NCBI GenBank assembly: GCA_020061125.1
Contig: JAGUYV010000414.1
Location: 1 to 11,386, forward strand
Direction: 5' to 3'
From: a bacterium
GTDB lineage: Bacteria > UBP15 > UBA6099 > DSWB01
DNA length: 11,386 nucleotides
In this document: one piece after another, positions 5 through 7,521 of the stretch
Layout: each line of letters begins with the position of its first letter
Numbering within the stretch: the first letter of the stretch is position 1
Translations under genes and position numbers: made by a program
The notes under the pieces: generated by a model
Told to the model about the DNA's origin: nothing
Databases searched by the model: none
Seen by the model: only the letters and a program-made list of their open reading frames with translations

Positions 5-1006
5 GTGGCGCCGGGCGGCGCGGAGACTGCTCTGGTGCGGCCGCCGGGCGTAACCGAACCGGACCTGTTCCTTGCCGAATGCCTTCGCTGCGGCGAGTGC
101 ATGCGCGCATGCCCCACCAACGCCATTCAGCCCGTGTGGTTCCAGGACACGCTGGAAAACCTTTGGACCCCGCACCTGGCCACGCGCGTTGGCTATTGCG
201 ACTGGGCGTGCAACAAGTGCGGCCGGGTGTGCCCGTCGCACGCCATCAAGGAGCTTACGCTCGAGGTCAAGCAGCGCACCGTGCTCGGCCGCGCCGTGTT
301 CGATCACAATCGCTGCATCCCGTGGTCGCGGGGCGAAAACTGCGCGGTGTGTGAAGAGCATTGCCCTGTGCCGGAGAAAGCCATCCACCTGCGCGAGGAA
401 AAAATGCTCGACGACCACCTGACGGAAATCACGGTCATGGTTCCATTCGTGCGCGAGGATCACTGCATCGGATGCGGCAGTTGCGAGGCTGTATGCCCCG
501 TGGAAGGCCGCGCGGGCGTGCGCGTCACCGGCGTTGCGCAGCATGTGCTCGAACCAAAGCAACACGGCCGCAGTCTCGGCGGCATCGTGCTGTCTTCCCT
601 TCTGCCCGCCTCGCCCCCGGCGCCCTGGCAGGCCGACGGAGAACCCCGCACCGCGGGACCGGACGATCTGTTCGTGCTCATCAACGGCGAGGCCGATGTG
701 TACATCAAACACGGATACCGCCGCGCCCTGCACCAGGCCTATTCCGATCCGTTCGCACCGGACACCTATTACATGGATGTGGAACTGTATCTCATGGCCA
801 ACGGGCAGGCGGCCAAAGGCATCTACGCGGAAAAAGCGCCTCCCGGCGGCGAGCCTGCCGAGGCCGGAGACACGGCTTCCTACACGCAAGGACAGTTGCT
901 TGTCCGCATCGGCCCCCTGTTCATGATCCTCAAAGGCGAAGCCTCGCGCGACGATTTCCTGGCCATGGCGCGCGCCCTGCAAGCTAATGTGCCGAAAGCG
1001 CATTGA
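5..1006 (+). CDS. 4Fe-4S polyferredoxin (MauM/NapG-like) with C-terminal DUF6599-like domain, 5' partial
   Basis: Electron-transfer iron-sulfur protein whose true start probably lies upstream: the frame is open to base 2 and the GTG at 5 is only the first possible start. Four 4Fe-4S Cys sets are visible (numbering from that GTG): C26/29/32/36, C65/69/72/76, C104/113/116/120 and C154/157/160/164. The stretch RPPG...LAECLRCGECMRACP is typical of MauM/NapG-type ferredoxins, which in nitrate and methylamine systems pass electrons at the membrane. From about residue 216 to 330 the chain changes to a Cys-free domain with LFVLINGEADVYIKHGYRRA and DVELYLM, which I read as a DUF6599-like domain of unknown function. 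Its missing N-terminus could hold a signal peptide or membrane helices. It converges with the membrane-protein gene on the other strand, leaving only 21 bases between stops. The redox role is well supported; the electron donor and acceptor are unknown. Confidence 0.85.
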   Translation: MAPGGAETALVRPPGVTEPDLFLAECLRCGECMRACPTNAIQPVWFQDTLENLWTPHLATRVGYCDWACNKCGRVCPSHAIKELTLEVKQRTVLGRAVFDHNRCIPWSRGENCAVCEEHCPVPEKAIHLREEKMLDDHLTEITVMVPFVREDHCIGCGSCEAVCPVEGRAGVRVTGVAQHVLEPKQHGRSLGGIVLSSLLPASPPAPWQADGEPRTAGPDDLFVLINGEADVYIKHGYRRALHQAYSDPFAPDTYYMDVELYLMANGQAAKGIYAEKAPPGGEPAEAGDTASYTQGQLLVRIGPLFMILKGEASRDDFLAMARALQANVPKAH

Positions 1007-4072: not shown

Positions 4073-5196
4073 AAAGATACAAGATCCTGTCTTGTGATTG
4101 GCCGCAGATTGTTGGCGCAGTTGAATGGATTGGTGGCGTCAACCAGCGCGGGGAGGTCGTCCGCGCCCAAACCGATATCCGCCAGCGAACGCGGCGCGCC
4201 GTGCGCCTCGATGAACTGTTGCAGGACCTCCACGGCGGCATGTTCTGAAGAAACTTTCAGCAACTCGAACAGGCGCGCCTTTTTCTCACCGTCCAGAACC
4301 GGCATGTTGAATTCCAGGGCCTGGGGGATCACGAAGGTGCAGGCGAACCCGTGGGGCGTGCCGCGCCGTGCGGTGATGGGATAGGACATGCCGTGGGCCA
4401 CGGCCGTGCCCGTGCTCAACAGTGCGAAGCCCGCGGTCAGAGCCGCGTAACTCATGCGTGCGCGGCACTCGAGGTCGTCAAGCGCGTCCACGGTGCGCGG
4501 CAGCCATTCCAGAATCACGCGGATGGCCTCGAAGCAATGCGCGTCGCCCGCGGGCTGCGAGCGCTTGCACCACAGGGATTCGCAGGCGTGGGACAGCGCG
4601 TCCAGGCCCGTGCTCGCGGTCTGATCCGCGGGAAGGTGCAGGCACAGTTCCGGATCCACGATGGCGTGCGCGGGCCACGCTGCGGGCGCGGACAGCGCGT
4701 ACTTGTTTTCGATCTCGGGGATGGTGATCACGAACGCGGCGTTCACCTCGGTGCCGGTTCCGGCCGTGGTGTTGATGGTGATTACCGGCTCGGCACGCGG
4801 CCCGAAGTTCTTTTTCTGGAGCATGTAATCGGCCAGGTCTCCCTGGTGGTGGACCATGAGAGCAGCGGCCTTGGCCGCGTCCAGGGCCGAGCCGCCGCCG
4901 AGGCCCACGAACAGCCCGCAGCGTTCCTGCTTGTAGAGCGCAGCGGCCTGGTGCGCTTCGCCGGTTGTGGGGTTGGGAGAAACCCTGTCGAACACGACAA
5001 CGCGATCCGCTCCCAGAAGATCCAGAACGCGATCCAGAATCCCGGTGCTCCTCATGGCCGAGCGGCCCGTTACCAGCATGATGCGCGTGTCTTTACCGTA
5101 TGGCGCGGCAAGCTCCGGCAGCTTGTTCAACGAGCCAGGCCCGAAATGCGCCATGGCCCGGTGCGGATATACCCAGTTGAAATCTTTCATTCCCAT
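4069..5196 (-). CDS. Iron-containing alcohol dehydrogenase (group III family)
   Basis: A 375-residue NAD(P)-dependent, metal-binding alcohol/aldehyde oxidoreductase, first gene of the minus-strand operon. The ATG at 5196 is preceded by GGGTGG (5208-5203) with 6 bases between; an in-frame TTG at 5214 and an ATG at 5190 are alternatives. Family signatures are clear: nucleotide-binding GLGGGSALDAAKAAA (98-112), NTTAGTGTEVN (142-152), STGLDALSHACES (195-207) with ligands D199 and H203, HGMSYPITARRGTPHG (268-283) with ligands H268 and H282, and a C-terminal NNLRPITRQDL like the usual NNPR end. Length is normal, so the gene is intact. In FucO-type enzymes the residue four after the third ligand is a catalytic-site His; here it is Tyr272, as I recall from the phosphonoacetaldehyde/hydroxyethylphosphonate-type subgroup. 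That hints at a phosphonate-linked substrate but does not prove it. Confidence 0.92.
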   Translation of the reverse strand: MGMKDFNWVYPHRAMAHFGPGSLNKLPELAAPYGKDTRIMLVTGRSAMRSTGILDRVLDLLGADRVVVFDRVSPNPTTGEAHQAAALYKQERCGLFVGLGGGSALDAAKAAALMVHHQGDLADYMLQKKNFGPRAEPVITINTTAGTGTEVNAAFVITIPEIENKYALSAPAAWPAHAIVDPELCLHLPADQTASTGLDALSHACESLWCKRSQPAGDAHCFEAIRVILEWLPRTVDALDDLECRARMSYAALTAGFALLSTGTAVAHGMSYPITARRGTPHGFACTFVIPQALEFNMPVLDGEKKARLFELLKVSSEHAAVEVLQQFIEAHGAPRSLADIGLGADDLPALVDATNPFNCANNLRPITRQDLVSL

Positions 5197-5231
5197 GCGC
5201 AGCCACCCGTGCAAAAGTTTCTATGACATTC

Positions 5232-5255
5232 ATTATAGCGGCAATTCCCAAGCGC
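5232..5255 (-). promoter_or_regulatory. Candidate sigma-70 promoter of the alcohol dehydrogenase operon
   Basis: On the minus strand a perfect TATAAT -10 box lies at 5237-5232. It starts 36 bases before the chosen ATG and would give a leader of about 30 bases. The -35 position at 17 bases spacing reads TTTCCG, a poor match. Because an intrinsic terminator just upstream (5308-5283) closes the preceding gene, the operon needs its own promoter here, which supports the call. Confidence 0.5.
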
Positions 5256-5282
5256 GGAAAACACGGAACCCATGCGCGAAAT

Positions 5283-5308
5283 AAAAAACCGGGGAGCGGA
5301 TCCCCGGT
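5283..5308 (-). terminator. Rho-independent terminator after the 171-residue protein gene
   Basis: The perfect 8-bp stem ACCGGGGA/TCCCCGGT (5288-5295 with 5301-5308) has a 5-base loop. On the minus strand it is followed directly by TTTTTTAT (5288 downward), the classic intrinsic terminator layout. It sits 32 bases downstream of the stop of the minus-strand gene that ends at 5340 and separates that gene from the dehydrogenase operon. Confidence 0.85.
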
Positions 5309-5339
5309 CTGGTTGGATTCATGAGGAACCTGTATCGTG

Positions 5340-5855
5340 TTATGCGTACATGGCGAATGAGGATTGAAGGGAACTGATGCGCGCGTCGCGCGCCTTTTTC
5401 CCGGCGCGCTGCTCGAAAATCCAATCCATTTCCTGATCCACGGTGCGCTCGCGCGTGCCGGTCTGGGCCAGTGTCTTTTTCTCGCGGCCCGCGCCCATGG
5501 ACTCCATGAGCGCGACCATTTCATAGAGCTTGCGCATGGACTTTTCGCCCAGGCGGTTTTCTGCGGCCAGCATGCGCACGGTGCTGCTCAAGCTGTCGCG
5601 CTGTGAGCGCGGGATGTTTGCATATTTGATGCGGGTGAGCAGGCCGCGGGTCTGAAGGTCCTGCTGCAACTGCGCAGGGTCCACGGCGGCGTCGCCGGAA
5701 TACAGTTTTTGAAGCAGGGAAGCGCCCAGACCGCCGATGCCGCCGCTTGCGGACCCGGTCAGCGAGGATGCGAGCATGGCCTTGCGATTGGACTCCATCT
5801 GCTCCTGGATGGGCTTGAGCCACTGCTGGATTGTGTTCAGAATCTCGGTTTTCAT
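5340..5855 (-). CDS. Hypothetical protein under a predicted flagellar sigma-28 promoter
   Basis: A 171-residue protein that I do not recognise. The N-terminal 27 residues form a charged amphipathic helix (ILNTIQQWLKPIQEQMESNR), followed by a Gly/Ser/Ala linker at 31-46 and a helical remainder with many Arg, Lys and Glu, including LGEKSMRKLYEMVALMESMG and QEMDWIFEQRAGKKARDARI. There is no signal peptide or membrane helix, so it is probably cytoplasmic or exported by the flagellar apparatus. A near-perfect FliA promoter lies immediately upstream and an intrinsic terminator follows, making it a single-gene unit of the probable flagellar/chemotaxis regulon. The start is uncertain: the promoter leaves only a few bases of leader before the ATG at 5855, while an in-frame ATG at 5798 (152 residues) is preceded by CAGGAG. 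A TTG at 5966 would read through the promoter and is unlikely. A rod-cap/FlgJ-like or chaperone-like helper is conceivable but unproven. Confidence 0.8.
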   Translation of the reverse strand: MKTEILNTIQQWLKPIQEQMESNRKAMLASSLTGSASGGIGGLGASLLQKLYSGDAAVDPAQLQQDLQTRGLLTRIKYANIPRSQRDSLSSTVRMLAAENRLGEKSMRKLYEMVALMESMGAGREKKTLAQTGTRERTVDQEMDWIFEQRAGKKARDARISSLQSSFAMYA

Positions 5856-5865
5856 GGCATTCTCT

Positions 5866-5892
5866 ATATCGGCGGAATTCCTTGAAACTTTA
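5866..5892 (-). promoter_or_regulatory. Sigma-28 (FliA) type promoter
   Basis: Read on the minus strand: TAAAGTTT at 5892-5885, an 11-base spacer, then GCCGATAT at 5873-5866. The enterobacterial FliA consensus is TAAAGTTT-N11-GCCGATAA, so this is 15 of 16 matches with exact spacing. It points at the 171-residue gene. Transcription would start near 5859, so the ATG at 5855 would be almost leaderless. Confidence 0.8.
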
Positions 5893-5996
5893 GCGTTGAT
5901 TCCGGAAATCAATCTTGAAAGGTTTGATAAAAATTTGCGTTGTAAATGAACGCCTTGTCTGCACAATTATGCAGCTCTTTAATGCGCCGGGCTGCT

Positions 5997-6056
5997 AAAA
6001 ACCGGGGACTGGGTCGTTTTCCGCAAGGAAAACGAAGCCTGTCCCCAGCGTTTTTT
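5997..6056 (+). repeat. Large imperfect hairpin with GCAA tetraloop (REP-like element or bidirectional terminator)
   Basis: The outer stem GGGGAC/GTCCCC (6004-6009 with 6041-6046) and the inner stem CGTTTTCC/GGAAAACG (6015-6022 with 6027-6034) close on a GCAA loop (6023-6026). Between them, GG/CC and T-A pairs bring the two stems nearly into register with two mismatches and one bulge. The left flank is AAAAA (5997-6001) and the right flank TTTTTT (6051-6056), so either strand could terminate transcription. The GGGGAC...GTCCCC ends resemble dispersed REP-type palindromes of other bacteria. Only one copy is present here, so its repeat status is inference. Confidence 0.65.
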
Positions 6057-6083
6057 CACCCCGCGCTGATTCACAACTCGATA

Positions 6084-6103
6084 CGCCTGCATAGCGGCAG
6101 GCG
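6084..6103 (+). repeat. Small perfect hairpin in the divergent intergenic region
   Basis: CGCCTGC (6084-6090) and GCAGGCG (6097-6103) form a perfect 7-bp stem with a 6-base loop. A short T-run (6108-6112) begins 5 bases after it. No gene ends nearby on the + strand, so a terminator role is only possible if a small RNA is made from this gap. The rest of the roughly 340-base gap (5856-6195) holds the FliA promoter and the larger hairpin; I see no convincing gene in it. Confidence 0.45.
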
Positions 6104-6185
6104 GGCATTTTTGTTGTTCCGCATACAAAGCCTCTGTTGCGTGATACCATGTTAACAACGCGGATTTAGAATGTTATCAGAGATT

Positions 6186-6189
6186 GGAG
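6186..6189 (+). promoter_or_regulatory. Ribosome binding site fixing the solute-binding protein start
   Basis: GGAG lies 6 bases upstream of the ATG at 6196. This favours that ATG over the in-frame TTG at 6184, which would overlap the Shine-Dalgarno itself, and gives a normal short n-region before the twin-arginine motif. Confidence 0.7.
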
Positions 6190-6195
6190 CGCGGC

Positions 6196-7521
6196 ATGAA
6201 CACGGCAAACAGACACACGCGGAGGGAGTTTTTGAAACAGAGCGCCATGGGCGCGCTTGCCGGGGCCGCGCTGGCAGCGCCCGGCGCAGCCTGGGCCGCT
6301 CCCCTGAAAAACAGCAAAATCCGGCTCATGCTTCGCCAGGATCTTGTTCCAGATTTCATCATGAACGGGTACCTGCAGCGCTTCAACGCCAAAAACAAGG
6401 ACATCTTTGTCGAATCCTCTTATGTCAACAGCAACCATGGGTGGGCCTATGAAGTGGAACACTGCCACGAGGCCCCGGCATGGTACACCGAGGGCGCACC
6501 GTGCCAGGTGTTCATGGGCCGCGGCCCTGCCCTGGCCCAGCTCGCCGACGCCGGAACCATCATCCCCCTCGACGATTTCCTCGCAAAATCCGGCGAACTG
6601 GACCGGAGCGACTACCACCGCAGCCGATACGGAAGCGTTCTGGACTCGGCCACCTACCGCGGCAGCCTGTGGGGCATCCCCATCATCGGCGACACCTACG
6701 CGCTGTTCTGCAACATGGACCTGTTCGCCGCGGCCGGGCTGGACACGCCCCCGGCCACCTGGGAGCAGGCCATCTCCATGGCGCGCGCCATAACTCGCGA
6801 CACATCCGGCGACGGCAGGCCCGATGTGTTCGGTTACTCCCAGTGCTCGTTCCAGTTCCCGCTCCAGATCCTTTCCGCGGGCATGGACCTTGTGGATCTC
6901 AAGAACAAGCGCGTGCTGTTCGACACGGACGCGGGCCTCGAAGCCCTGGACACTTACCGCCGCTTGAGCGCCAACTCCCCGCCCCATGTGGATTTCGAAA
7001 AAGGCGATATGGGCATGAAAATCAGCGTCACCACCAACGCCCACGGCCGCTACAGCCACATCAACCATGTGACCGCGCCCCTGCCCGCGGGCGCGCGCCG
7101 CGCAAACACCTACGGCGACTCCGACGGCATCACCGCGTTCGCCATCGCGTCTTCGGCCGGCAAAGACGAGCGCGAGGCCGCCTGGCGCTTCATCGAGTTC
7201 ACCGCGGGCGCGCCCATGTTCTTCGAACTGACAAAGGCCGCGCGCATGATCCCCCTGCGCAATTCCATTCTCAACAGCAGCAAATACGCCGAATATCTCG
7301 AACGATATCCCGTGAAAAAGGCGTTCGTTCAGGAACTCGAATACGCCGTGCCCAAGCCTTGCATCCCCGAATACCGGTACATTGAAGTCATCATGCGCGA
7401 CATCCTGCTCGTGGTGCAGCACGCGGAAAACAGACTGGCCGTGTCTCTGGACGCCATGCGCGAACACCTCAAGGCCAAGACGGAACTGGCCAACGCACGG
7501 CTGGCCAAAGCAGCCTGGTAA
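6196..7521 (+). CDS. Tat-exported extracellular solute-binding protein, family 1 type
   Basis: A 441-residue periplasmic binding protein of an ABC importer, probably for a sugar or related solute. The N-terminus has a textbook Tat motif (TRREFLKQ, residues 8-15), an Ala/Gly-rich h-region and an AWA-type cleavage site near residue 34. The mature part matches the family 1 pattern: GTIIPLDDFLAKSGEL, then RGSLWGIPIIGDTYALFCNM, then DLFAAAGLDTPPATWEQA, and late in the chain AAWRFIEFTAGAPMF. Length is normal for the family. Tat rather than Sec export is notable, as most such proteins use Sec; it suggests folding or cofactor loading before export. No permease or ATPase gene is adjacent: upstream is a divergent flagellar-type gene and downstream an unrelated operon with its own promoter. 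It is therefore an orphan here, and its ligand cannot be read from the sequence. Confidence 0.88.
   Translation: MNTANRHTRREFLKQSAMGALAGAALAAPGAAWAAPLKNSKIRLMLRQDLVPDFIMNGYLQRFNAKNKDIFVESSYVNSNHGWAYEVEHCHEAPAWYTEGAPCQVFMGRGPALAQLADAGTIIPLDDFLAKSGELDRSDYHRSRYGSVLDSATYRGSLWGIPIIGDTYALFCNMDLFAAAGLDTPPATWEQAISMARAITRDTSGDGRPDVFGYSQCSFQFPLQILSAGMDLVDLKNKRVLFDTDAGLEALDTYRRLSANSPPHVDFEKGDMGMKISVTTNAHGRYSHINHVTAPLPAGARRANTYGDSDGITAFAIASSAGKDEREAAWRFIEFTAGAPMFFELTKAARMIPLRNSILNSSKYAEYLERYPVKKAFVQELEYAVPKPCIPEYRYIEVIMRDILLVVQHAENRLAVSLDAMREHLKAKTELANARLAKAAW

Follow-up and report, generated by a model that had tools for sequence, protein, structure and literature searches.

In E. coli, class 3 FliA (sigma-28) promoters include that of tsr, TAAAGTTT-N11-GCCGAAAA (PMC4183435, Table 2), and in C. 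jejuni transcription begins 6 to 8 nt downstream of the sigma-28 -10 motif (PMC3847290). The leaderless mRNAs described in C. jejuni and H. pylori have the -10 box directly before the ATG and no ribosome-binding site; the leaderless genes of C. jejuni have sigma-70 promoters, and the leaderless property is poorly conserved between species (PMC3847290). The promoter sequence is common to FliA and WhiG, the latter governing sporulation and the control of type IV pili (PMC8325347), and C. jejuni CJnc170 provides a precedent for a FliA-dependent small RNA (PMC11187230).

The stretch of DNA analyzed here (the window, 11,386 nt) comes from a 4.12-Mb, 79% complete genome of UBP15, a candidate phylum listed as 'Candidatus Lagoxiota' and recorded from black smokers, digester sludge, and wastewater (PMC11382960). 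A first reading made from the letters of the window (the sequence-only reading) had claimed that a FliA promoter matching 15 of 16 consensus positions, with the exact 11-base spacer, sits just upstream of the start codon of an unrecognized 171-residue protein, here called P0001, and that a terminator follows the gene. When the consensus (-35 TAAAGTTT, N11, -10 GCCGATAA) was scored against the window, all of these elements were recovered: positions 5892-5866 on the minus strand read TAAAGTTT-CAAGGAATTCC-GCCGATAT, matching 15 of 16 FliA consensus positions across an 11-base spacer, and the ATG at 5855 is the 11th base after the -10 box. This site shares its two boxes and its 11-base spacer with E. 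coli class 3 FliA promoters. The features of the locus are as follows.

5885-5892, minus strand: -35 element TAAAGTTT of the predicted FliA promoter (8/8 consensus positions)
5866-5873, minus strand: -10 element GCCGATAT of the predicted FliA promoter (7/8 consensus positions)
5856-5861, minus strand: expected transcription start zone, placed from the -10 position and the C. jejuni sigma-28 rule (PMC3847290), giving a leader of 0 to 6 nt
5340-5855, minus strand: P0001 gene, encoding a 171-aa helical protein (ATG 5855-5853, stop 5342-5340)
5286-5310, minus strand: terminator-like hairpin of the intrinsic type, 10 pairs followed by T's, about 30 nt past the stop codon

The P0001 gene is arranged as a single unit with its own promoter. 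With as many as 3 mismatches allowed, 5892-5866 was the sole match in the window, and 5 of 200 shuffles gave any match at all; in the whole genome, three sites scoring at least 15/16 were seen, against 0.024 expected from base composition at one spacing. Its sequence and setting make it almost certain that this is a genuine FliA promoter, and we infer that transcription of the gene would depend on FliA in the cell.

The window genome carries a FliA gene (254.8 bits, above the curated cutoff) together with 21 Flagellin_N matches over the cutoff, hook-associated relatives included, so that the lack of fliA or of flagellar genes, which the sequence-only reading had named as a refutation, does not apply here. 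This Flagellin_N set is unusually large, and several of its members lie in frames of 500 to 1,000 aa. A single sigma factor scores above the FliA cutoff, the others in the genome matching the FliA profile weakly, and its gene adjoins a MinD/ParA-type gene that we read as flhG. Two FlgM candidates (C390:6036-6203 and C497:1637-1798), both scoring below the curated Pfam FlgM cutoff, lie behind FliA-type sites with an 11-base spacer, and further FliA-type sites precede fliD (contig C84) and flagellins (C422 and C200). With a 12-base spacer, the motif is perfect (16/16) at two genome sites against 0.0004 expected, one before a flgL-like gene (C51) and one before a putative small RNA (C352); since this spacing also occurs before flagellins, 11 bases was rejected as the sole valid spacer length. 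Among the relatives, perfect or 15/16 sites precede a flgM-like gene in genome G001 and a flagellin in G003, both named from their translations. The sites before flgM, fliD, the flgL-like gene, and flagellins suggest that the FliA promoter serves the late genes of this lineage, the spacer being 11 or 12 bases long. In the genome scan proposed in the sequence-only reading, the best sites stood out from the backward-pattern control, but matches at loose thresholds did not. Genome-wide matches with 2 or 3 mismatches showed no excess over backward-pattern controls, and because the controls equal or exceed them, we regard these counts as uninformative. Several flagellin starts of the window genome have no clear FliA site.

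A profile search found a relative of P0001 in all seven available genomes of the phylum, and the window genome holds a second, diverged copy of the gene (28% identity). Relatives in a named collection include UBP15_UBA6099 and ADurb.Bin236. In 379 genomes outside UBP15 there was no credible match to the family, and the gene appears to be confined to this one candidate phylum. A weak match outside the phylum, in G020 (E = 2.5e-4, 46 profile positions within a 606-aa frame), was left uncounted. Judged by eye from the translations and, for the window, from the Pfam and NCBIfam scans, gene neighbors vary among the family loci: the window locus is flanked by an alcohol dehydrogenase and a solute-binding protein, another by a DNA methylase and an unknown gene, another by an SRAP-type protein and a carbamoyltransferase, and a third of these other loci by a sphingosine-lyase-like protein and pilins. 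Beside the G005 family copy lies a tandem pair of near-identical pilin-like genes (G005:C156; L112 4215-4604 and 4625-4969). Elsewhere in the window, at the contig start (positions 5-1006, plus strand), a NapG/MauM-like polyferredoxin is joined to a DUF6599 domain.

The site was scored within the 60 nt that precede the ATG of all eight gene copies, with 1,000 shuffles each. It reached 15/16 in the window and in G002, G003, G004, and G006 (these four genomes being close relatives that count as about one observation), and 14/16 with a 12-base spacer at the diverged second copy of the window genome. The score was 12/16 in G001 and 11/16 in G005, where the site is degraded. No shuffle reached the observed score for the six strong copies, compared with 13 of 1,000 for G001 and 64 of 1,000 for G005. 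Among 135 control ORFs, scores of at least 12 belonged to family members alone, bar one ORF on the flagellin contig C275. Thus, a FliA-type site abuts the start codon in 8/8 copies, strong in six, moderate in one, and degraded in one, and the possibility raised at the outset, that the motif might be unconserved upstream of orthologues, is contradicted by these scores. The retention of FliA-type sites before the relatives, although the neighboring genes differ, suggests a phylum-specific gene of the late flagellar regulon. The assignment of the 171-aa gene to the late flagellar class in the sequence-only reading is likewise supported, as a prediction, by the FliA gene, the regulon sites, and the conserved site.

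The placement of the window site is atypical, leaving room for a leader of a few nucleotides only, without a Shine-Dalgarno sequence. Taken as the distance that separates the -10 box from the ATG, the leaders of other late genes are ~30 to 40 nt (flgM), ~47 nt (C422), 57 nt (the flgL-like gene and the G003 flagellin), ~77 nt (fliD), and 133 nt (the C200 flagellin); UBP15 late genes thus keep a leader of ~30 nt or more, with a Shine-Dalgarno sequence in the cases read, whereas 10 nt separate the window site from its ATG. The six other genomes have a corresponding gap of 7 nt and the two window-genome copies have gaps of 10 and 9 nt, and no Shine-Dalgarno-like word is present. The arrangement therefore has the sequence hallmarks of leaderless mRNAs, a -10 box that lies within ~10 nt of the start codon and the lack of a Shine-Dalgarno sequence, and its position indicates that the P0001 mRNA is probably leaderless or nearly so. 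By the C. jejuni sigma-28 rule, this mRNA would begin at the AUG or at most about 5 nt ahead of it. The first ATG is supported as the start by the M-x-I-D beginning, which is invariant in the five proteins of G001 to G005. In having the -10 box directly before the ATG and no ribosome-binding site, the P0001 family resembles the leaderless mRNAs described in C. jejuni and H. pylori; unlike the C. jejuni leaderless genes (PMC3847290), it has a sigma-28-type box, with a spacing kept across the phylum.

P0001 had no match in Pfam, NCBIfam, or PHROGs; when all family members were compared with Pfam at E values up to 10, scattered weak matches alone appeared, and PHROGs gave the same picture. The protein is predicted to be all-helical: in two AlphaFold models (pLDDT 70 and 77), the core is made of helices and a long helix forms the C terminus. 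Foldseek and VIA-align searches with both models returned nothing at E < 0.001 or Z ≥ 8, and the fold matches listed are common helical arrangements (three-helix bundles, ISD11, and others). FlgM and FlgN resemble P0001 in being small helical proteins of the flagellar regulon (~100 to 180 aa), but they have separate genes in the window genome and P0001 matches neither model. Identity with FlgM (PF04316) was rejected, there being no match for P0001 or for any family member at E up to 10, as was identity with FlgN (PF05130), which P0001 does not match and which has its own gene at C51:6708-7130. The profile matched H. pylori HP0242 weakly, along 55 residues of the helical region, the best score being to an engineered chimera (E = 0.014), with an E value of 0.36 to native HP0242; HP0242 is absent among the fold matches listed, and we do not trust this match. 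With no family match and no significant fold match, the role of P0001 is read from its regulation. The product would be small, soluble, and helical, and our guess is that it most likely works in the cytoplasm as an accessory factor in late flagellar assembly, in export, or in the control of motility.

Taken together, these results lead us to propose, with a probability of roughly 80%, that the site is the FliA promoter of a one-gene late flagellar unit that yields a near-leaderless mRNA for a phylum-restricted accessory protein. According to the usual scheme, export of FlgM through the finished hook-basal body would free FliA, and FliA-RNA polymerase would then transcribe the P0001 gene alongside flagellin, flgM, and fliD. 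Transcription would start at the AUG or a few bases before it, giving a leaderless or near-leaderless mRNA, and translation of P0001 would proceed without a Shine-Dalgarno sequence. One alternative concerns the start codon: the promoter is real, but translation begins farther downstream, at an ATG that has a Shine-Dalgarno sequence, such as M20 of P0001, so that the mRNA has a leader. M20 is preceded by CAGGAGCAG, with CAGGAG directly upstream, as this alternative would have it; the spacing from CAGGAG to M20 is short, however, in the alignment M20 is not matched by an ATG at the equivalent position in every relative, and both the M-x-I-D sequence at the first ATG in the G001 to G005 proteins and the distance from the -10 box to that ATG are constant. 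We consider a start at M20 unlikely.

The promoter itself might be questioned in two ways, each of which we judge very improbable. The motif could match by chance or be decaying, with the gene read from another promoter and lying outside the flagellar regulon, a view to which the degraded G005 site and the lack of excess over backward-pattern controls at 2 or 3 mismatches lend some weight. Against it, sites of this quality are expected 0.024 times per genome, the site is kept before diverged relatives and the second copy in other gene neighborhoods, and a crude scan of positions 5000-6300 found no sigma-70-like site. It is also conceivable that the site is read by a FliA/WhiG relative governing a nonflagellar function, in which case the gene would not be flagellar. 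WhiG does share the FliA promoter sequence, and other sigma factors in the genome match the FliA profile weakly, but the single sigma factor above the FliA cutoff is encoded beside the flhG-like gene and the same sites stand before flagellin, flgM, and fliD.

The analysis places an orphan protein of an uncultured phylum in a pathway by means of one promoter, an assignment that survives a phylum-wide test, and it brings to light a previously undescribed protein family. A near-leaderless arrangement conserved under the flagellar sigma factor is unusual. More speculatively, a phylum-private late flagellar protein made from an always leaderless sigma-28 transcript, whose translation would escape leader-based control acting on other late genes, might represent a new late checkpoint or assembly factor, an idea that we put forward tentatively.

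The FliA promoter scan also led to a putative small RNA antisense to flagellin. At C352:2662-2689 of the window genome, a perfect 16/16 FliA site has no long ORF behind it; the element (site and RNA, 2662-2766) includes a putative RNA of about 77 nt with a folding z of -5.4, which combines a hairpin with a terminator and has no credible Rfam match. It recurs in G001 (C178), G005 (C4), and G006 (C539), and thus in 4/7 UBP15 genomes, each copy having a FliA-like site of its own, although those of G001 and G006 are weaker; the full-length element was not found in G002 to G004. Among the copies, the 18-nt GAGTTGAAGTTAGTGTTG is invariant and one terminator pair is changed on both sides, from C-G to T-A. 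The window genome (C173) and G001 (C10) each have a flagellin gene that contains, a few codons past its ATG, the exact complement of GAGTTGAAGTTAGTGTTG, and a flagellin start in G005 (C121) is complementary to it at 16 of 18 positions; in G006, no flagellin target was found. Among 20 flagellin-family starts, the pairing predicted for the small RNA was best with C173 (-41.7 kcal/mol, z = -7.5), the runner-up giving -34.1 kcal/mol (z = -3.4). We regard the C352 element as a putative FliA-driven small RNA antisense to the flagellin start, although the complementarity could come from an inverted copy of the flagellin start instead of regulation.

A few other FliA-type sites precede genes of diverse kinds. 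A 15/16 site at C314:5710-5736 lies ~75 nt before a glycosyltransferase-like gene, which is possibly a flagellin glycosylation gene, the site otherwise being there by chance. A FliA-type site at C456:621-648 of the window genome precedes a small protein without a Pfam match, and FliA-type sites are also found before small proteins at G005:C330 and G006:C114; these small proteins may be further members of the late regulon.
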